A program made the translations under genes and the position numbers. The notes beneath the pieces are model-generated. The model ran no database searches, had not been told where the DNA came from, and saw only the letters and a list, made by a program, of their open reading frames with translations. A stretch of DNA of 64,000 nt from Bacteroidales bacterium (lineage in GTDB: Bacteria > Bacteroidota > Bacteroidia > Bacteroidales > UBA4181), in the NCBI GenBank assembly GCA_031275285.1, contig JAISOY010000189.1, positions 1 to 64,000 on the forward strand. Reading direction: 5' to 3'. Below are positions 6,704 through 53,678 of this stretch, piece by piece (positions within the stretch are counted from its first letter, which is position 1; every line of letters starts with the position of its first letter).

Positions 6704-7956
6704 GATATGGATGATGTATGATGATGAACTAAATCTTCTACATTGTCGGGCTTCACAATACACTCTGATGTTAAAACGAATCTCTTCAACCGATGATATA
6801 ATGCCAACGGGAAAATCAAGAAAACAAGCAATGTGGCAAAATAAGGCAGTGTTTGTACAACAGGTAATCCCCGTATGGCCAGATCTACGTATATGTGAAA
6901 ATAATGACGTATAGGAAATAAATAAGAGAACCCTTGTAATGGAGCATCCATGATCTCTATCGGGAAAGTCAATCCGGATAAAGAAATTCCAAGAACCCCA
7001 TAAACTCCGGCTATGGTAAGTGCTACCCTGAAATCAAACAATAACGAGAGTATGAATAGTGCCATAGATTGATAAGCAATGACCAGTAATATTACAGCCA
7101 CCAGAATAGCGAAAAAATTACCCTCATAGGTAAAATGAAGATACTTGAAAAATAAGGTATTCCCAAAGACCGTCACCAGTGAAAACAATATGGTATAAGG
7201 TAATAATTTGCCTATCAGGGCGGTAAAAAACGATCCGTTGGCTGCTGCCAGCCAATCACAGATAGTACCATGCTTTATTTCATGCCCGACAATAAAAACC
7301 GTGATCAACAGGATCAGTATTTGTACCAATCCGTGAGACAGTATAGTGGACAAATACATGGAATAATTGGTCCAGGGATTACCCAAAGCATGAAAATCCA
7401 GTGCGATAGGCTGAACATTAGCCATAATGGTTTGCATGGGTTCTCCTTTTTGGGTACGTATACCTACATTGACTGCTGCCGAGGATAAAGCAGTGATGGT
7501 GGAAAAATCACGCATCAGCAATGATCCGGTAATCAGGTAACTATTATTGGTATAAAAAACGATCTGCGGTTGTTTTCCCGACATAGCATCGATTTGCAGG
7601 TTCGAAGGTAATACGATGAATCCGAGTATATCGCCTTTCTGCATGGCGCTTTTTCCTTCATGGAAGCTGGTCAGATGAGCCACGACCCTGGTTTGTGGCG
7701 AAGCATCCAGATTACGGGTAAAAGTTCGGGATAGATTACTGTTATCCATATCAACCACAGCCACAGGTAATTCTTTAGGCATTCCTTCCGACATCATCGA
7801 AGCAAAGAACACATAACAAAATAAAGGCATGATCAGGGTAACGATCAGGTATATCGGACGGCTGAGCATCCTGCTGCATTCGCGTCTGATGACCTTCATC
7901 AAAGGTTTATCCTGCTTTCGGGACGGTTGATTATCTAGTGAAGAATGATCCATCAA
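6700..7956 (-). CDS. ABC-2 type efflux permease, first of pair
   Basis: A 418-residue paralogue of the following permease with the same layout: a cytoplasmic N-terminus, one helix (about residues 35-55), a periplasmic loop with LPVAVVDMDNSNLSRTF, and five C-terminal helices. The shared AVVDMDxS block shows that the two permeases arose by duplication. It is translated upstream of its partner with a 4-bp overlap. The first two codons are both ATG, and a later Met at the start of the basic MKVIRREC segment is also possible. Confidence 0.9.
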   Translation of the reverse strand: MMDHSSLDNQPSRKQDKPLMKVIRRECSRMLSRPIYLIVTLIMPLFCYVFFASMMSEGMPKELPVAVVDMDNSNLSRTFTRNLDASPQTRVVAHLTSFHEGKSAMQKGDILGFIVLPSNLQIDAMSGKQPQIVFYTNNSYLITGSLLMRDFSTITALSSAAVNVGIRTQKGEPMQTIMANVQPIALDFHALGNPWTNYSMYLSTILSHGLVQILILLITVFIVGHEIKHGTICDWLAAANGSFFTALIGKLLPYTILFSLVTVFGNTLFFKYLHFTYEGNFFAILVAVILLVIAYQSMALFILSLLFDFRVALTIAGVYGVLGISLSGLTFPIEIMDAPLQGFSYLFPIRHYFHIYVDLAIRGLPVVQTLPYFATLLVFLIFPLALYHRLKRFVLTSECIVKPDNVEDLVHHHTSSIS

Positions 7957-7995
7957 TGATGCTTTAAAGATAGAGAATTGTATACCGGTTCCGGT

Positions 7996-8988
7996 TTATT
8001 TGCTGTTTGATTTGTATTTTAAAAGTGCGGACATCCCCGGACGTAGTCCTTCTATTTTTTGTGTAGGTTGAGCCCTCACTTCAAAAGTTTTGGCATCAAA
8101 CTCACCGGTTACCTTGGTTGCTTTCCAGGTAGCATAAGTTCCCAGTGCTTTGATATAATTTACCTTAGCGGTAACTTCCTGATTACCTAAAGCCGGAATG
8201 TTTATTTTCAGCTCTTTACCCATTTCAATACCTTGCAGAAGGTCTTCACGGATATTGAAAGTGATCCACATATCATTGAGGTCAGCAATGCTCATTAACG
8301 GGGATCCGGTACCGACCAGTTCGCCGACATTGGGGTAGACTTCAGTGATTTCCCCGGACAAAGGAGCGGTAAGCGTGGTTTCTTTCACATAAGATTTTAC
8401 TTCATCTACAGCACCTTTTGCCTGGTTGACCAGTGCCATTGCAGCTTGTTTGTCTTCTGCCTGAGCACCATTCATGGCCATATCATATTGTGATTTTGCA
8501 GCTTTGGCGGTAGCCACGGCAGCTTTGTATTGAGCTTCGGCCTCATCCCGTTGCTGGGCTGTGACTACTTCTTTGTCATAAAGTGCTTTTATACGATCAT
8601 AGGTTTTCTTCGCAATGTCAACTCCGGCTTCCGCTTTCTGCCACATTTCATAAGCAGAAGCGATCTGTTCACTGCGTGTTCCCCGTATGGCTTTCTGATT
8701 TTGTGCTTCGGCAGCAGCAACAGCAGCCTGGGCCTGTTCCATTTTAGCTGCTACTTCCGGACTATCCAGCAATAACAAGGTATCTCCTTTATTAACCTGA
8801 CTGCCCTCCTTTACATAAAGTTCGCTGATCCGTCCCGGTACTTTTCCCGACACTCTTACTTCGGTTACTTCCACTTCACCCTGTAAAACTAGCGGTCCGG
8901 GACGTAAAGCAATCCATCCTATGATAAACAGTGCGGCGATCAATACGATCAGGCCTATAAATCCGACTAAAAGATTGTACTTTTTCAT
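7996..8988 (-). CDS. HlyD-family periplasmic adaptor (membrane fusion protein)
   Basis: A 330-residue protein with an N-terminal membrane anchor (about residues 8-28), a split lipoyl/barrel-sandwich domain (VRVSGKVPGRISELYVKEGS and later LTAPLSGEITEVYPNVGE) and a central alanine-rich alpha-hairpin (about residues 75-200). This is the adaptor that links inner-membrane permeases to the TolC channel. It sits 36 bp after the TolC gene and 40 bp before the permeases, in operon order. Confidence 0.93.
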   Translation of the reverse strand: MKKYNLLVGFIGLIVLIAALFIIGWIALRPGPLVLQGEVEVTEVRVSGKVPGRISELYVKEGSQVNKGDTLLLLDSPEVAAKMEQAQAAVAAAEAQNQKAIRGTRSEQIASAYEMWQKAEAGVDIAKKTYDRIKALYDKEVVTAQQRDEAEAQYKAAVATAKAAKSQYDMAMNGAQAEDKQAAMALVNQAKGAVDEVKSYVKETTLTAPLSGEITEVYPNVGELVGTGSPLMSIADLNDMWITFNIREDLLQGIEMGKELKINIPALGNQEVTAKVNYIKALGTYATWKATKVTGEFDAKTFEVRAQPTQKIEGLRPGMSALLKYKSNSK

Positions 8989-9024
8989 ATTGTTTTCTAT
9001 TTGATATTTTTTCCGACGTGAATG

Positions 9025-10539
9025 TTATTTTTTATCCTGATTTTCCGATAGTTCTGCATGTAATTGTCCACTGACTTTATCCAGGTACACTTTACTCAAC
9101 TTAACGTCAATATGTGCATCTATAGCTTCGGAATAAGCAGAATACCAGGCAGCCTGAGCTTCCATAACTCCTGTTACAGGTACTACCCCTTCTTCAAATC
9201 CCATATTGGCAAAACGCATGTTTTCTTTGGCCTGTTCCATATGTTTCTGGGCACTTTCCATCCGTTTATTGGCTTCTTCAATACGCAAATGAGCCTGAGT
9301 GTACTGTAACTCTATCATTTCAGCCGCTTCCTGCCGTTTTATTTCAGCAATCCGGCGTTCACTTTTTGCTACATTAACTGTCTGGCGTTTTTCTCCCCAA
9401 TGAAATATGGGTACTTTCATGGCAATACCCACAGTGAAATTTCCTGCAAAGTCATGCTTAAAACCATTGTATGGATTAGGATTAGACAGCAGATAACCTG
9501 CCGTAAGTCCAATCGTAGGCATATATTCACTTCTTGCAATGGATACTTTAGAGTCGGCTATCTTTGAAAGAAAATCCAGGCTTTTTAATTCCGACCGATT
9601 TTTCCACACATCGGTAGTTTCCGGTACCTCATTGGTTTCACTGTTCTCCGCTTCGATTTCTTCCGCGAGCACAATATCACTATCCAAAGGTAATCCGATA
9701 AGGCGGCACAAAGCCATTTTTGATAACCTCAGGCCGTTATTGGCCTTGGTCAATGTCATATCTACTTCATTCAACCTGACTTTTACTTTCAGCATATCAT
9801 TTTTGGTAGCCATCCCTTCATCATGCATGGCGGTGAGATTTGCGTCCAGCTTACTCATCAGTGCTTTATATTCTTCAGCAATTTTTACTTTATGACCTAA
9901 TGATATTACCTGCCAATATGTCTCTTCCGTACTATAAATAGCATCAGCCTGTCCGCTTGTCAATTGTGTCCTGGCAATAGAGTCGGCAAAATGAGCCATC
10001 CGGTTGTAGCCTCTGATCTTCCCTCCCATGAAAATAGGCTGGGTAAGCCCCACCATTCCGAAAAGTATATGGTTAGCGTCGATCTTGAATTCGTCTTTGG
10101 GGATATATGCATAATTTTTCCATTGGATCAGCTCCGGATTCGCCTTCGGGTCGAACGGCTGTCCGTTGGCATCCAAGGGCGCCGGTTGTCCGTTGACCAA
10201 TGTCCATTGATTATTTACCTGTTCCTGTGTAAAGGAAAAACTTCCATCGGCAGCCCTTGATCCGACAGGAATGAATTTATCTTCCGATAAGAGGGAAATA
10301 TTTTTGTAACTGTACATATACCCTGCATTAGCATCCAGTTTTGGGAAGTATGCACTACGTGCTACTTTTCGTTGTGCTTCTGCCTGGGTAATTTGTTCGT
10401 TGGCTATGGCGAGCGATTTATCGTGATCCAATGCCATCTGGCGACATTGTTCCAGCGTCAGACGGGTTTGAGCCGATACGCTAAGCCCATACAACAAGAG
10501 CATAAAACAAAATTTTGCTTTCATATTTTCTGGTTTCAT
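9025..10539 (-). CDS. TolC-family outer membrane efflux protein
   Basis: A 504-residue protein with a cleavable signal (MLLLYGLSVSAQ) followed by TLEQCRQMALDHDKSLAIANEQI, the hallmark start of OEP repeats. Two long coiled-coil OEP halves follow, the second ending near SKVYLDKVSGQL. It provides the outer-membrane channel for the exporter encoded downstream. The start at 10539 (MKPENMKAK) gives a slightly long N-region; the Met five codons in (10524) is equally credible. Confidence 0.93.
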   Translation of the reverse strand: MKPENMKAKFCFMLLLYGLSVSAQTRLTLEQCRQMALDHDKSLAIANEQITQAEAQRKVARSAYFPKLDANAGYMYSYKNISLLSEDKFIPVGSRAADGSFSFTQEQVNNQWTLVNGQPAPLDANGQPFDPKANPELIQWKNYAYIPKDEFKIDANHILFGMVGLTQPIFMGGKIRGYNRMAHFADSIARTQLTSGQADAIYSTEETYWQVISLGHKVKIAEEYKALMSKLDANLTAMHDEGMATKNDMLKVKVRLNEVDMTLTKANNGLRLSKMALCRLIGLPLDSDIVLAEEIEAENSETNEVPETTDVWKNRSELKSLDFLSKIADSKVSIARSEYMPTIGLTAGYLLSNPNPYNGFKHDFAGNFTVGIAMKVPIFHWGEKRQTVNVAKSERRIAEIKRQEAAEMIELQYTQAHLRIEEANKRMESAQKHMEQAKENMRFANMGFEEGVVPVTGVMEAQAAWYSAYSEAIDAHIDVKLSKVYLDKVSGQLHAELSENQDKK

Positions 10540-47169: not shown

Positions 47170-47328
47170 ATGATTTGGGAAGGATTAGGATCAATCAAAT
47201 TACCCGTCCGACCGATACAGGAATTGCAAAATATAACCGAAGGATGGGCGAATTTCCTTGCCTGCCTGAAAGCATGGATGGAATACGGTATCAATCTCTG
47301 CAAAGGAGCGTTCGACTTTATGAAATAA
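47170..47328 (+). CDS. possible 52-residue protein upstream of the MmcQ-like gene
   Basis: A short frame beginning MIWEGLGSIKLPVRPIQELQ and ending with an amphipathic, Trp/Phe-rich segment (WMEYGINLCKGAFDFMK). It stops 3 bp before the next start codon. It may be a small gene or the tail of a lost one. I do not recognise it. Confidence 0.35.
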   Translation: MIWEGLGSIKLPVRPIQELQNITEGWANFLACLKAWMEYGINLCKGAFDFMK

Positions 47329-47331
47329 AGT

Positions 47332-47694
47332 ATGAATATTGAAGAATTCAGGGAATATTGTTTATCCATAAAGGGCAGTACAGAATCGCTTCCCTTCCGG
47401 GCAGATAATATCTTAGCCCTTAAGGTAATGGATAAAATGTTTGCTTATATTACATTGGAACCTAAAGACGGCGTATTCAGAGTGAATCTCAAGTGTGATC
47501 CTGAAAAGTCGATGGAACTACGGGAAAGGTTTTGGGGAATAACTGAAACTGATTTTAAAACCCCATCATGGAACCTGGTTACTTTGGAAAGCGATGTACC
47601 GGATGATCTGATCAAAGAATTAATCCAACATTCGGTAGATGAGGTGATAAAAAAACTATCCAAGCGTAAGCAGGATGAATACCTGAATCAGTGA
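47332..47694 (+). CDS. MmcQ/YjbR-family protein
   Basis: A 120-residue protein with the YjbR fold: a start NIEEFREYCLSIKGSTESLPF, a central DKMFAYITLE, KCDPEKSMELRERFWGI, and a closing helix. The family has a CyaY-like or double-wing fold with proposed DNA binding, and no firm function. Length is normal for the family. Confidence 0.88.
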   Translation: MNIEEFREYCLSIKGSTESLPFRADNILALKVMDKMFAYITLEPKDGVFRVNLKCDPEKSMELRERFWGITETDFKTPSWNLVTLESDVPDDLIKELIQHSVDEVIKKLSKRKQDEYLNQ

Positions 47695-47755: not shown

Positions 47756-47987
47756 CCAAAAGCACTGGACACTATACAACAAGCCTTCAGAAATCGGAAT
47801 CCACGCCTGAATGGCGAAAAATTCCTATCAAACCGTGATGTTTGCCGAATACTTCATATCTCGTCCCGTACTTTACAGGATTGGCGGGTTACGAAAAAAT
47901 CCTTTTATTCAGATTAAGGGAAAGATTTTGTATAAGGAATCGGAAATGTTGAAGTTTTCAGAAATAAACTTGATGCATTTGTTCTAA
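47756..47987 (+). pseudogene. frameshifted excisionase-like HTH (mobile element) remnant
   Basis: One frame reads LNGEKFLSNRDVCRILHIS then SRTLQDWRVTKKSFYSD and stops at about 47914; the next frame continues IKGKILYKESEMLKF to 47987. Joined, this is the HTH_17 protein found beside integrases of Bacteroidota integrative elements. The frameshift and lost N-terminus make it non-functional. Confidence 0.75.
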
Positions 47988-48033
47988 ATTTGTATAATGA
48001 TAACAAAAATAACAATAAATATTTATTGATGCT

Positions 48034-49014
48034 TTACCAAGACAAAAAGCCAGTATCTACTTTTTGAGATTTACATTCCGTGTAATTAATTTGTCTAAAT
48101 GCTATTTTATTGATTGGCTTGTAAATAATCATAGGAAAAGTCTTAAAATCACCACAAGAATTACATATTTTTTTTATATGTAATAATAATTGCATATAAA
48201 CTTGTGCAACTTCATAGTTTTTTGAGATAACAGGCTTTCCATCAATTTCTTCTCCATCCAATTCTAATATTATCGACTGCGAGTGAGATTCTTTCTTCTC
48301 TTTTTCTATTTCTATTTTATAGGAAGTCGATAAAGAGTCTTCCAACACTATGTTAATTCCACTGAGAAGTTTATCATTAGTTCCAAATTTAGTTTTTGAC
48401 TTAGAATAAGCTTCTTCTGATATGATAGATTTTTCAATTGTTTGAAGCTCAATAGTTGTAGTTTTACTTTCTCCTTTATTTATTTTTTCTTTTGTTTTCC
48501 AAGAACTTTCAAAAACAAAATTTTCATTAATCACTTTGTAATCAATAAGAATATATTCTGTTTTTATAACTTTAAATAAAGTATAATCTTTCTTTGAAAA
48601 AATGATTTTATCTACAGGGATTGTTTTGTTTTGAGTTAATCCTGCTTCATATTCTGTATATAATGTAAAAATACGTTCCGGCAACTCTTTTATATCTTTT
48701 TTGTGTAAAAAATCCATATAACCTAGTTTTTGAGCCTTGATCGAATCTTGAAATGTGGCTTCACCGCTGACCATAATGGCTTTCAAATATGGATTTAGTT
48801 TCTTCAACCTCTCAAACATATCAGTTCCCGGTATAGGCATTACTTGATCAATTACTATCACTTTAATAGGGCATTTAGTAACATAACTTATTGCTTCCTC
48901 AATATTTGAAACTGCTTTTGATGATAATTGGCATTTTATTTCTATCAAATCAGCATATGCTTTAGCTGTTTCAATATGATCGTCTATTATTAGAATCTCA
49001 ATATTATTTATCAT
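48034..49014 (-). CDS. response regulator with an unrecognised output domain
   Basis: A 326-residue protein. Residues 1-125 are an intact receiver: D11-D12, phospho-acceptor D56 (VIVIDQVMP), S83 in place of Thr (IMVSGEA) and K105. Residues about 130-326 match no output domain I know: there is no HTH, GGDEF, AAA+ or enzyme motif, but a beta-rich, Ser/Thr/Lys-rich region (KTTTIELQTIEKSIISEEAYSK) and a late CNSCGDFKTFPMIIYKPINK. It overlaps the kinase gene by 11 bp. Its AT content is much higher than the neighbours, and decayed integrase genes flank the pair, so it looks acquired. Confidence 0.82.
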   Translation of the reverse strand: MINNIEILIIDDHIETAKAYADLIEIKCQLSSKAVSNIEEAISYVTKCPIKVIVIDQVMPIPGTDMFERLKKLNPYLKAIMVSGEATFQDSIKAQKLGYMDFLHKKDIKELPERIFTLYTEYEAGLTQNKTIPVDKIIFSKKDYTLFKVIKTEYILIDYKVINENFVFESSWKTKEKINKGESKTTTIELQTIEKSIISEEAYSKSKTKFGTNDKLLSGINIVLEDSLSTSYKIEIEKEKKESHSQSIILELDGEEIDGKPVISKNYEVAQVYMQLLLHIKKICNSCGDFKTFPMIIYKPINKIAFRQINYTECKSQKVDTGFLSW

Positions 49015-50623
49015 TTTTGGGAATTATTAAAGTTGTTATTACTAAACCTTCAATCACATCAAAGTTCACAGAAGAGTTTTCAATATTTGCAATCAAATTT
49101 CTTACAATTGAAAGTCCAGTTCCTGTATGACCTGCTTTAGATGAATAGCCTACTTTATATAAATTTTCTTTATTAATTGAAATGGCAGTAGAATTTGTGA
49201 TTTTTAATAGCCACTCATTACTGTCCTCAATAAACTGTATCTTTAAAACGCTTTTATCTTTTGCTGCACAAATAGCGTTTTCAATTAATGGTAAAAGAAT
49301 CGCAAGAATAAAATTACTACTATACCCATCAATAGTTTTTGGTATATTTATATGCTCATACTCAACTTCTTTTTTGTTAACTTCTTGATATAATAATTCT
49401 GCTGAGTTTATACCATCCACAATATTTATACGATCTTCATCTTGATTGTTATATGCGAAAAACGCCAACTGTCTGTAAGCAACCAAAAAAGATTTTGACA
49501 ACTCTATTCCTGCTTTTATTGATTTAAGATTCCGCTCAACTATAGGCTCTTTAATCAAAATGGATGCTTCAACATTCATTAAAGCAGCATCCATTTGAGA
49601 AATAGGGGTCATTAAGCAATGAAAAATTTCTCTGATAAAATTTTGTTGATGTGAATAACTCTGGGGTTGATGGTTATCTAATGAATCTCTAATCTTACTC
49701 AATCCATCTATAACGTCCTTTAAATCAGCGGTATTCCCCTTGTTTGAGACTCTAAGCTCTTGTTTTATGATACTTTGAATTCGTTCTGTTATATTCTCCA
49801 TCAAATATTCAGAATTATCAATTCTAGATGTATAAATATCATTACTATCATTATTGTAACCATATAATAATATATCTCGGAAAGTTTCTCTTGATATATT
49901 TTTACTATTTATTTTACGATTTTCTAACTTGCGAATATTTTTAATTATCCGATATTTCAATTCATCATCTATTTTTGAAAATTGCAATAAAGACTCGGCT
50001 TCATCCATAAACATATACCATGAATCATTATTCTTTCTATAAGAATAATATTCTCGAAACATAAAATATAACCTTTCAAGTATTTCTTCCATCATATTAT
50101 CATGATGTACTTTAGACTCGACAATGATCTGTTTTTCTTTTCTATTCTTAAACTTCCAATAGAAAAACAATAATATAAATAATGGGATCCAAAAGACAAG
50201 TATGATATCAAAAATAGGGAGAACCGATTTATATCCATTGAATACGATCTCAGAACCCACCACTGTGTGATTTGTATTAATATTAAACGAAGTATAAATA
50301 CAAAATCCTAGAATAGCATTTAAAAGGATACTAACAGATATATTAGACCATTCTTTATCATCTCGAGTGAAACATTTGTAGGTCACATATAAAGAAAGTG
50401 CTAATGTAATTCCTAGAAGGATCCAAAATATTATCAAAACAATTTTTTCATTGAATAAATTTGCTGTTGAATAGAAAATCAACCCTACACTCAAAAAAGT
50501 AAAGATATTAAGCCCCAAACCTTGTCCATCATCGTCATCACTAACATTTACCAAACATCCAATTATAGAAAAGATGCATCCCAAAGATGCAGAAATAAAA
50601 AATACCCAATTAAGAACTTCCAT
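49004..50623 (-). CDS. membrane sensor histidine kinase paired with the novel regulator
   Basis: A 539-residue kinase with about five N-terminal helices (residues 5-25, 38-56, 62-83, 95-113, 134-156), a coiled/helical linker, an H-box F-H335-C-L-M-T-P and a HATPase domain with N449 (LLPLIENAICAA) and G-box GTGLS (501-505). Cys replaces the usual Glu/Asp after the phospho-accepting His, which is atypical. There is no large periplasmic sensor domain, so the stimulus is probably in the membrane. It overlaps the regulator gene by 11 bp. Confidence 0.85.
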   Translation of the reverse strand: MEVLNWVFFISASLGCIFSIIGCLVNVSDDDDGQGLGLNIFTFLSVGLIFYSTANLFNEKIVLIIFWILLGITLALSLYVTYKCFTRDDKEWSNISVSILLNAILGFCIYTSFNINTNHTVVGSEIVFNGYKSVLPIFDIILVFWIPLFILLFFYWKFKNRKEKQIIVESKVHHDNMMEEILERLYFMFREYYSYRKNNDSWYMFMDEAESLLQFSKIDDELKYRIIKNIRKLENRKINSKNISRETFRDILLYGYNNDSNDIYTSRIDNSEYLMENITERIQSIIKQELRVSNKGNTADLKDVIDGLSKIRDSLDNHQPQSYSHQQNFIREIFHCLMTPISQMDAALMNVEASILIKEPIVERNLKSIKAGIELSKSFLVAYRQLAFFAYNNQDEDRINIVDGINSAELLYQEVNKKEVEYEHINIPKTIDGYSSNFILAILLPLIENAICAAKDKSVLKIQFIEDSNEWLLKITNSTAISINKENLYKVGYSSKAGHTGTGLSIVRNLIANIENSSVNFDVIEGLVITTLIIPKNDK

Positions 50624-50755
50624 ACCTTATTTAAAATTTTATATTATCAGCAGTCTATTTACAGAAAGACACATTTTTACAAAGATACTAAAGAATTTGG
50701 CTGTTAGACAAAAAACACATATAAGTTCATGTCGTTGACCCCTTTTAATTTATTA

Positions 50756-50995
50756 TTAATTATGACAAGACTCTGGCATATCATCCTTTAGTAACTCATA
50801 CTTGTTTTTAATACGGGACGACAACAATTTCATATCCTCATTCACCTTTTGGTTATTAATTTTGGCGTAATATCATGTGATTTTAGTGAAATGATAACCC
50901 CATCCATTTTGTACAGCATTTCAATTGCCCCCCTGTTAGATGAAGACTTTAGCTACATATGTGTGGCGTCCGCAATGATACGTGAGATTAGCTAC
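50756..50995 (-). pseudogene. C-terminal remnant of a tyrosine recombinase (integrase)
   Basis: One continuous minus-strand frame gives LTYHCGRHTYVAKVFI, the HxxR-H box of tyrosine recombinases, then stops, then HFTKIT and YYAKINNQKVNEDMKLLSSRI, which holds the tyrosine nucleophile region. Three stops interrupt it and the N-terminal two thirds are gone. It lies just beyond the kinase gene, opposite the excisionase-like remnant on the other side of the pair. Confidence 0.85.
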
Positions 50996-51141: not shown

Positions 51142-51753
51142 TTAAATCAATTTCTTTTCGATAGCCATTTTTACCAGAATCATGGAGTTTTTAGCTCCAA
51201 GTTTCTGAATAAGGTTTTTACGGTACGTTTTTATCGTTTCGATACCTAAAAAAAGTTTCTCCGCCATTTCCTGATTACTATACCCATCCACAATAAGTTT
51301 AAGTAGTTCCTGCTCTCTGGAAGATAACCAGACCGGTTTATCCGTATGTTCTTCCAGAAGGATATCCACTTCGTCACAAAGAAAGATCTCGTTATTCATT
51401 ACAGTTTCAATACCGGCAATCACCTCTTCCGACAAAGAATTTTTAAGGATATAGCCCGATGCTCCATTCGCCATCACACGTTTGACAATAGAATACTCAT
51501 CGTGGGAAGTAAGAACTAAAATTTTCATATCAGGATATTCCTGATGAATCTCCACACAAAAATCAATACCATTTCCGTCCGGTAAACTAATATCAAGAAG
51601 TAATACATCTGCTGTTTCGGGTGACAACAGCCTGCGGCACTCTTCGAGCGAGTAAGAAACACCTGTTACCTGGGCAATGCCGGATCCATTGATAGAAGCA
51701 GTTAAACCTTCTACAAACATTCTATGGTCGTCAGTTATATGTACCTTTATCAT
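51142..51753 (-). CDS. LuxR/NarL-type response regulator
   Basis: A 203-residue protein with a receiver (D8-D9, D54 in LLLDISLPDG, K in GYILKNSL) and a C-terminal GerE-type HTH (LSSREQELLKLIVDGYSNQEMAEKLFL, then IKTYRKNLIQKLG). It overlaps the kinase gene by 4 bp. The most likely target is the divergent InlB-repeat lipoprotein gene, whose promoter carries an inverted repeat. Confidence 0.93.
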   Translation of the reverse strand: MIKVHITDDHRMFVEGLTASINGSGIAQVTGVSYSLEECRRLLSPETADVLLLDISLPDGNGIDFCVEIHQEYPDMKILVLTSHDEYSIVKRVMANGASGYILKNSLSEEVIAGIETVMNNEIFLCDEVDILLEEHTDKPVWLSSREQELLKLIVDGYSNQEMAEKLFLGIETIKTYRKNLIQKLGAKNSMILVKMAIEKKLI

Positions 51754-53678
51754 ATCGATTCTATTTCTAAGATGATTTCTGTTCCTTCTCCTGAGGCCGA
51801 ACGGACAGTCATTTTACCATGATAAGTCAGTACCCGTGCCCGTATATTTTCCAAACCTGTACCTGTGATCACCTTATCCGGGTCGAAACCTATCCCGTCA
51901 TCATCTACAGTCAAAGCTATTATTTTTTTTTCTATCAGCAACTGGACATTTATATTAGAGGCATTAGCATATTTAACAGCGTTGTTGATCAGTTCATACG
52001 CACAACGGTATAGCACCACTTCCAAACGTGGATCTAAACGGGAGTCTTCTCCTATAAACTGGAAATGAGCATTGGGAATGGACCGGCAAAAATCTTCAAG
52101 CGATACTTTCAGACCGGAATGCATCAGGGATTCCGGCATCATATGATGGGCTATACGGCGGAGCTCAACGATTGATTCGTCTAACATTTTCATAGCCTTA
52201 CCATATTGATCCGGGGTTTGTTCACTTATAGCAACAGGATCAAGTTCTTTTTCTAAATTAAGTTTTACCACAGATAACATCCCGCCCAGTCCATCGTGCA
52301 GGTCACGGGCAAGCCTGGAACGTTCAGCGGTTTCTCCATCCAGGATAGCCTGGGTAGCAACGAGTTGCTTTTCCTGTTCCAATCGTTCTACCTTTTGACG
52401 GGCAATCTCACGTTCCTGTTCCATTGTTTTTTGTTTCTGGATATCCAATCTTTTCCGGTAGAATAATACCCCCAAAGACATGAGTATAGCAAGGCCTCCC
52501 GCTATACTCAACCAAGTATAAAGCTGTTTCTCTTTTTCCAAACTCAGGATACGTATCTCTTTCTTTTCGGTTTCATATTTTATTTCCATATCAGCTAAGC
52601 TGTTGTGGAGACTTTTATCACTTAGCCGATCACGTATTAACTTATATTGCCTTAAAAAGTAATCGGCTTTTTCATGATTGCCTAAAAATATATTGGATTG
52701 GCATAATAAAATACTTGCATTTCCGGCTTGTTGCAGGTCTGTCGAATCAGCCATCCATGCTTTGTAAGCGTATGTATCTGCTTCTTTATAGCGCTTCATA
52801 TCCATGTTTGCTTTTGCCATTACCACCCATGCCACACGCAATTTCTGTTGATCTCCATATATAATTGCATTATCCAGACATTCGTTGGCAAATTTCCCGG
52901 CATTTTCCAGATCATTCATATCGCCGTACAGTCCTGCGAGCATTTGTGTAGAAATAATTATATCTCCTTTATCGTTTATCTCTTTGCTGATCTCATAGGA
53001 TTTCAATATACTGATGATGGCACTATCCTGTTGTCCTCTTTCGTTGTATATACCGCCTATGGATGAGTAAATCGAATTCATTGCTCCGATTATGTTGTGT
53101 TTTTCAGCTATTGTCCGGGCTTTTTTTAAGTAATTGAATGCACGTTCGTCGTTGTTATAATGAAGATTTGCTACATTAATGAGTGCGTATGCCTGTAGGT
53201 CATATTGTTGTGCACTTTCAAGTGCCGGTAGTATATCAATATACGACTTCAACGCCATTTCCCTGTTTCCGGCAGTCATATATGTATTCGCAATTTCCAG
53301 ATAAGCGGCATTTTCCTCTTTCTTATTTCCCGCTTTCACAGCATATTTGACCGCTTTTTCACCTGCTTGCAATGCCAGGTCGAATTGGTCTTTACGGTAG
53401 TAAGATATACATATTGCACGGTAGAATCTGGCTGCCCACGGGTTATTGTTGTTTTTCTCAGCAAATTGTATGGCCTCTTCGGCATATAAAATATTTTTAT
53501 CCAGATCCGTACTCCAGTAACAAAGTAGTATATCCCAATATAATTGCATTCTTTTTTCAGAAGTCAACTCCTGCCCTTGTGTATTCAATACATGAAGCAG
53601 AGAGTCAACATCCTGTGTCTGACTAAAAAGACTATTAGAAAACAGACATATAAAACAGATGAGAAATATTACGTACAT
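51750..53678 (-). CDS. TPR-containing sensor histidine kinase (HisKA_3 type)
   Basis: A 642-residue protein with a signal peptide (ending SLFSQ), about eight TPR-like repeats in the periplasm (residues 60-350), a transmembrane helix (387-406), a coiled coil, and a HisKA_3 domain with the phospho-accepting H461 in ERSRLARDLHDGLGGML. The HATPase domain ends with DDDGIGF and GTGLENIRARV. This Bacteroidota architecture senses periplasmic or envelope signals and phosphorylates a NarL-type regulator, here the next gene. Confidence 0.93.
   Translation of the reverse strand: MYVIFLICFICLFSNSLFSQTQDVDSLLHVLNTQGQELTSEKRMQLYWDILLCYWSTDLDKNILYAEEAIQFAEKNNNNPWAARFYRAICISYYRKDQFDLALQAGEKAVKYAVKAGNKKEENAAYLEIANTYMTAGNREMALKSYIDILPALESAQQYDLQAYALINVANLHYNNDERAFNYLKKARTIAEKHNIIGAMNSIYSSIGGIYNERGQQDSAIISILKSYEISKEINDKGDIIISTQMLAGLYGDMNDLENAGKFANECLDNAIIYGDQQKLRVAWVVMAKANMDMKRYKEADTYAYKAWMADSTDLQQAGNASILLCQSNIFLGNHEKADYFLRQYKLIRDRLSDKSLHNSLADMEIKYETEKKEIRILSLEKEKQLYTWLSIAGGLAILMSLGVLFYRKRLDIQKQKTMEQEREIARQKVERLEQEKQLVATQAILDGETAERSRLARDLHDGLGGMLSVVKLNLEKELDPVAISEQTPDQYGKAMKMLDESIVELRRIAHHMMPESLMHSGLKVSLEDFCRSIPNAHFQFIGEDSRLDPRLEVVLYRCAYELINNAVKYANASNINVQLLIEKKIIALTVDDDGIGFDPDKVITGTGLENIRARVLTYHGKMTVRSASGEGTEIILEIESI

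Follow-up and report, generated by a model that had tools for sequence, protein, structure and literature searches.

Two-component systems usually end in a recognizable DNA-binding or enzyme domain. RteB, the regulator of the RteA/RteB pair of CTnDOT, is of the NtrC type. Detocs also follows a two-component logic, with a possible nontranscriptional output, and integrative elements of the CTnDOT kind often carry defense genes. The two-component proteins RteA and RteB are encoded by a Bacteroides conjugative transposon, whose excision and transfer genes they control (PMC1976400). In the intact Bacteroidales elements that we examined, an HTH gene and an integrase gene (int) converge, with their 3' ends 88 to ~450 bp apart. 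The gap is 94 bp in a B. ovatus element (L068), 88 bp at the second integrase (intB) of a P. distasonis element (L066), and about 450 bp in two further elements (L064 and L065), where a single small gene separates the HTH gene from the integrase gene. None of them has the two-component pair described below in the HTH/int junction.

The stretch of DNA analyzed here (the window; 64 kb) is part of contig 189 of a 5.5-Mb Bacteroidales genome. A chromosomal TPR-kinase/LuxR regulator pair (51142 to 53678) forms one edge of the region of interest. At the opposite edge, beyond a gene of the MmcQ/YjbR family, are two genes that we label as candidate GH43-like glycosidases from reading the sequence alone.

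To identify remnants of mobility genes, proteins from intact elements were searched against the raw DNA of the window. Real proteins matched both of the pseudogenes that the original prediction placed on either side of the pair. A C-terminal remnant of a tyrosine recombinase (50759 to 50989, minus strand) corresponds to residues 340 to 416 of a 417-residue Bacteroides fragilis integrase (E of 7.6e-12 when a 4.8-kb region was searched and 1.9e-10 against the entire window). The match is in a single frame with three in-frame stops in 77 codons, and the first ~340 integrase residues have no match anywhere in the window. On the other side of the pair, the remnant of an excisionase-like HTH_17 gene (47759 to 47981, plus strand) has lost its N terminus and carries one frameshift. 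Positions 47765 to 47981 match residues 25 to 94 of the 105-residue HTH protein of a Bacteroides ovatus element (E of 4.4e-13), spread over two frames, and the translation with the break bridged by X scores 28.9 bits against Pfam HTH_17 (cutoff, 27).

The nearest intact relative of the integrase remnant is found in B. fragilis (NZ_OR675140.1; 13357 to 17126 of locus L062). There, a protein annotated as phage abortive infection and BfmA/BtgA-type mobilization genes come after two tandem integrases, and the integrase cluster is an insertion within a transfer-gene region.

The two remnants have the same convergent HTH/int order as the intact elements (3' ends at 47981 and 50759), with a gap of 2.8 kb that the pair occupies. 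Because this geometry is that of intact elements, the simplest reading is that both remnants come from one decayed element, with the pair inserted in its HTH/int junction. This argument falls short of proof because the element type that best matches the HTH remnant differs from the one that best matches the integrase remnant. A search for att-like repeats around 47.7 and 51.0 kb, as the original prediction had proposed, returned none above the level of shuffled sequence: the boundary zones shared at most 10 nt, a length that 18 of 30 shuffles also reached. The geometry speaks for a single element; the differing best matches and the lack of att repeats count against it. The window contains no tRNA, tmRNA, or Rfam RNA that could serve as an RNA target. 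Searches for an empty site with the YjbR and TPR-kinase flanks in eight genomes of the same genus recovered only paralogues on short contigs.

The ends of the element were probably lost along with the N-terminal part of the integrase. As the ends may be deleted, what is left in the window is taken to be a decayed scar rather than an element. No topB, DUF1896, mobilization, or transfer genes were seen among the open reading frames between 44 and 55 kb, which fits a scar. The locus resembles CTnDOT-like integrative conjugative elements (ICEs) in its integrase C terminus and HTH_17 gene, both of which survive as remnants and converge, and in its YjbR gene, since one ICE within the genus carries a YjbR gene as well. 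It differs in that only scraps remain and in that a two-component pair sits in the junction.

The MmcQ/YjbR gene is intact (47332 to 47694, plus strand; Pfam YjbR E of 7.4e-19). Its closest ortholog in the genus (63%; L055, contig 86 of genome G006) belongs to an ICE, in which topB and DUF1896 flank it, both antiparallel to it, and the relative orientation in the window matches that in this ICE. The remaining genomes of the genus yielded only one distant match. The window gene may thus possibly be a leftover of the element. Directly before it is a putative C-terminal remnant of an SRPBCC-type protein (47239 to 47328, plus strand), an assignment that is tentative with one short match to annotated SRPBCC proteins (tblastn E of 1e-3; 64% over 25 amino acids). 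This fragment is possibly a further decayed gene of the scar.

The genes of the pair, a histidine kinase (49004 to 50623) and a response regulator (48034 to 49014), are both on the minus strand, overlap by 11 nt, and are intact over 539 and 326 codons, respectively. The chance of open frames this long at this base composition is 5e-23 for the kinase and 3e-14 for the regulator. The GC contents of the kinase gene (28.6%) and the regulator gene (27.7%) contrast with 39 to 40% in neighboring genes, and the GC at third codon positions is 21 to 23% in the pair versus 36 to 40% in the neighbors. These results agree with the original prediction of an intact, AT-rich pair between the remnants, and by both measures the pair is foreign to its surroundings.

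The anatomy of the two proteins gives good support to a predicted phosphorelay. The 539-amino-acid kinase begins with about four to five predicted transmembrane helices, followed by a cytoplasmic linker. A motif, QNFIREIFHCLMTPISQ, resembles an H-box of the form H-x-L-x-T-P at H335, and a GHKL ATPase domain spans residues 440 to 535 (HATPase_c_5, 30.0 bits versus the Pfam cutoff of 22). There is no HisKA family match in the kinase, and H335 is assigned as the phosphoacceptor histidine by this motif only. The 326-amino-acid regulator has a receiver domain at residues 7 to 115 (Response_reg, 54.8 bits versus a cutoff of 30.2) with a phosphoacceptor aspartate, D56, and then an output domain of 200 amino acids. 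The membrane-embedded kinase would sense an envelope or membrane signal and autophosphorylate on H335, from which the phosphate would pass to D56 of the regulator. The phosphorylated regulator would then act through its C-terminal domain. The multi-transmembrane N terminus and the HATPase_c_5 domain, which is above the Pfam cutoff in this pair and in its only relative (see below), recall the AgrC-like GHKL kinases. However, the partner regulator lacks a LytTR domain that Pfam recognizes and the H-box differs in its form; no peptide-signal gene was recognized beside the pair.

The output domain had no useful match in Pfam, NCBIfam, PHROGs, or PDB sequences, and Pfam detected only the receiver in the regulator, with nothing usable in the C-terminal 200 amino acids up to an E of 10. 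Because the domain is of no recognized DNA-binding type, the regulator might bind DNA in a novel way or act directly at the protein level, and a domain that matches nothing may represent a new type of output domain. It is basic (pI 8.5 to 9.0) and has a conserved CxxCG motif and a C-terminal DTG motif. No transmembrane segment was predicted in the regulator. A beta-pore-forming output domain was considered and rejected, as its beta-amphipathic signal does not exceed that of shuffled sequences (z of 0.0 and 0.2) and Pfam gave no match. Single-sequence AlphaFold2 models were too poor for use (mean pLDDT of 33.6 for the regulator and 30.7 for the C-terminal domain).

The pair is patchy and rare: of about 1,100 Bacteroidota genomes, two carry it. 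None of the eight same-genus genomes (57 to 93% complete) has the kinase, and they show only weak matches to its ATPase domain. A search for the C-terminal domain of the regulator in about 1,100 genomes sampled from the family, order, class, and phylum recovered it in just one further genome, G883 (E of 1.6e-15). Weak matches to this domain also appeared in G1025, G029, and G860; those in G1025 and G029 were dismissed as noise, the proteins being alpha-2-macroglobulin-like and outer membrane (TonB receptor-like), respectively. A kinase match in G417 was rejected as a relative because it is an NtrY-like kinase. A phylum search with the whole regulator was swamped by receiver domains and gave only the top candidates per genome; it was not used to establish absence. 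There was no match to the pair in 72,556 plasmids, in 50,697 phages, or, by pattern scan, in IMG/VR, and where the G883 regulator matched plasmids, it did so only through receiver domains. Pattern scans of genome contigs, which reach close relatives only, also found nothing.

The G883 pair keeps the order of kinase and then regulator, with 30% and 35% identity, respectively, over the full lengths. The kinase retains H335, N449, and the GTGL sequence, and the regulator retains D11, D12, D56, and K105, so that both pairs share the phosphoacceptor residues and N449. The GC content of the G883 pair is 31% versus 44 to 51% for the neighboring genes. The pair alone fills an AT-rich unit of 2.9 kb (7424 to 10347 of locus L040, contig 9) that has no transfer genes and is bounded by perfect 20-nt repeats (7424 to 7443 and 10328 to 10347). 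The right repeat overlies the 3' end of a tmRNA gene that ARAGORN and Rfam identify as complete, and the 3' end of tmRNA is a classic integration target. No integrase or HTH remnant was recognized between the repeats. Judged by these boundaries, the putative unit is the footprint of another integrative element, independent of the first and located at a site of a different kind. That the only relative pair found also lies in an att-bounded unit is the best evidence for the pair being cargo. The proposal that the pair is cargo of integrative elements is thus supported at two loci, the scar in the window and the unit at the G883 tmRNA gene, although two cases of element association are few. If so, the pair, which occurs in two Bacteroidota far apart and in both is flanked by traces of an integrative element, is a small example of cargo outliving its carrier.

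Elsewhere in G883 (L040 1 to 4600 and L069) is a cluster that we named from reading its sequence as a contractile-injection or phage-tail-like cluster. It has sheath, tube, baseplate-like, and AAA ATPase genes, and several of the proteins have long serine tracts.

The remnants, their geometry, the YjbR ortholog in a same-genus ICE, the foreign composition, the patchiness, and the G883 unit lead us to regard it as somewhat probable that the stretch is the scar of a Bacteroidales int/HTH (CTnDOT-like) element in which a foreign two-component pair has survived as cargo with a phosphorelay function. We infer that all of the pieces in the window come from one element and that phosphotransfer occurs. 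Because the GC content of the pair (28%) differs from that of the remnants (36 to 37%, nearer to the host), the pair may have arrived later, as a horizontally acquired two-component system inserted into neutral DNA of an already decayed element to which it has no functional tie. Such an insertion would also account for a pair with no disabling change beside an integrase remnant with its three stops. However, the position of the pair coincides with the HTH/int junction, and its one known relative is in an att-bounded unit as well, which makes later insertion an unlikely, if credible, explanation. Open genes beside broken ones, together with catalytic residues conserved in a distant relative, suggest selection for the pair. 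The suggestion is weakened because it assumes that the pair was present while the element decayed. The selection that the original prediction proposed is plausible, and the open frames and conserved phosphorelay residues fit it, but the case is weak given possible arrival after decay and a nearest relative that is only 30 to 35% identical.

More specific functions for the pair appear less probable than its survival as cargo. It could regulate transfer of the element that carries it, the role that RteA/RteB, likewise a kinase/regulator pair tied to a Bacteroidales mobile element, has for CTnDOT (PMC1976400). That precedent notwithstanding, the window regulator has no transcription factor output domain that Pfam can recognize, no transfer genes for it to regulate were seen between 44 and 55 kb, the G883 copy is in a 2.9-kb unit without any, and the pair is in none of the plasmid-borne elements searched, so we consider this role very unlikely. 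By analogy with Detocs, the pair might instead be an anti-phage system in which phosphorylation releases the C-terminal domain of the regulator as a toxic effector. A kinase and regulator with a nonstandard output domain, their rare and patchy occurrence on mobile elements, and the annotated abortive infection protein that adjoins the closest integrase on the B. fragilis element would be consistent with this idea. However, the comparison with Detocs was by description and PADLOC only, and the window pair has two genes rather than three and a membrane kinase. The defense role raised in the original prediction gained no backing from PADLOC (2023 library), which had no specific match for either protein and no defense-family match outside the shared receiver and ATPase domains; the relative matches SduA weakly (E of 0.0014), within the receiver domain. 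Neither copy has recognized defense genes beside it, and the regulator has no known toxic or enzymatic domain and no transmembrane segment. An anti-phage function of this type therefore seems quite improbable. A broader proposal, which we consider distinctly unlikely, is that the pair is a rare, compact element-borne module of Bacteroidota, spread as minimal att-bounded cargo of which the 2.9-kb G883 unit would be an example, and in which the membrane kinase would switch on a regulator whose C-terminal domain is a direct effector in defense or carrier survival.

Upstream of the kinase gene is a Bacteroides-type promoter-like site, TTTG-N21-TANNTTTG (50680 to 50712, minus strand). It is one of two matches in the 64-kb window, in which about 2 are expected by chance, and by its position alone it is weakly suggestive of expression of the pair.
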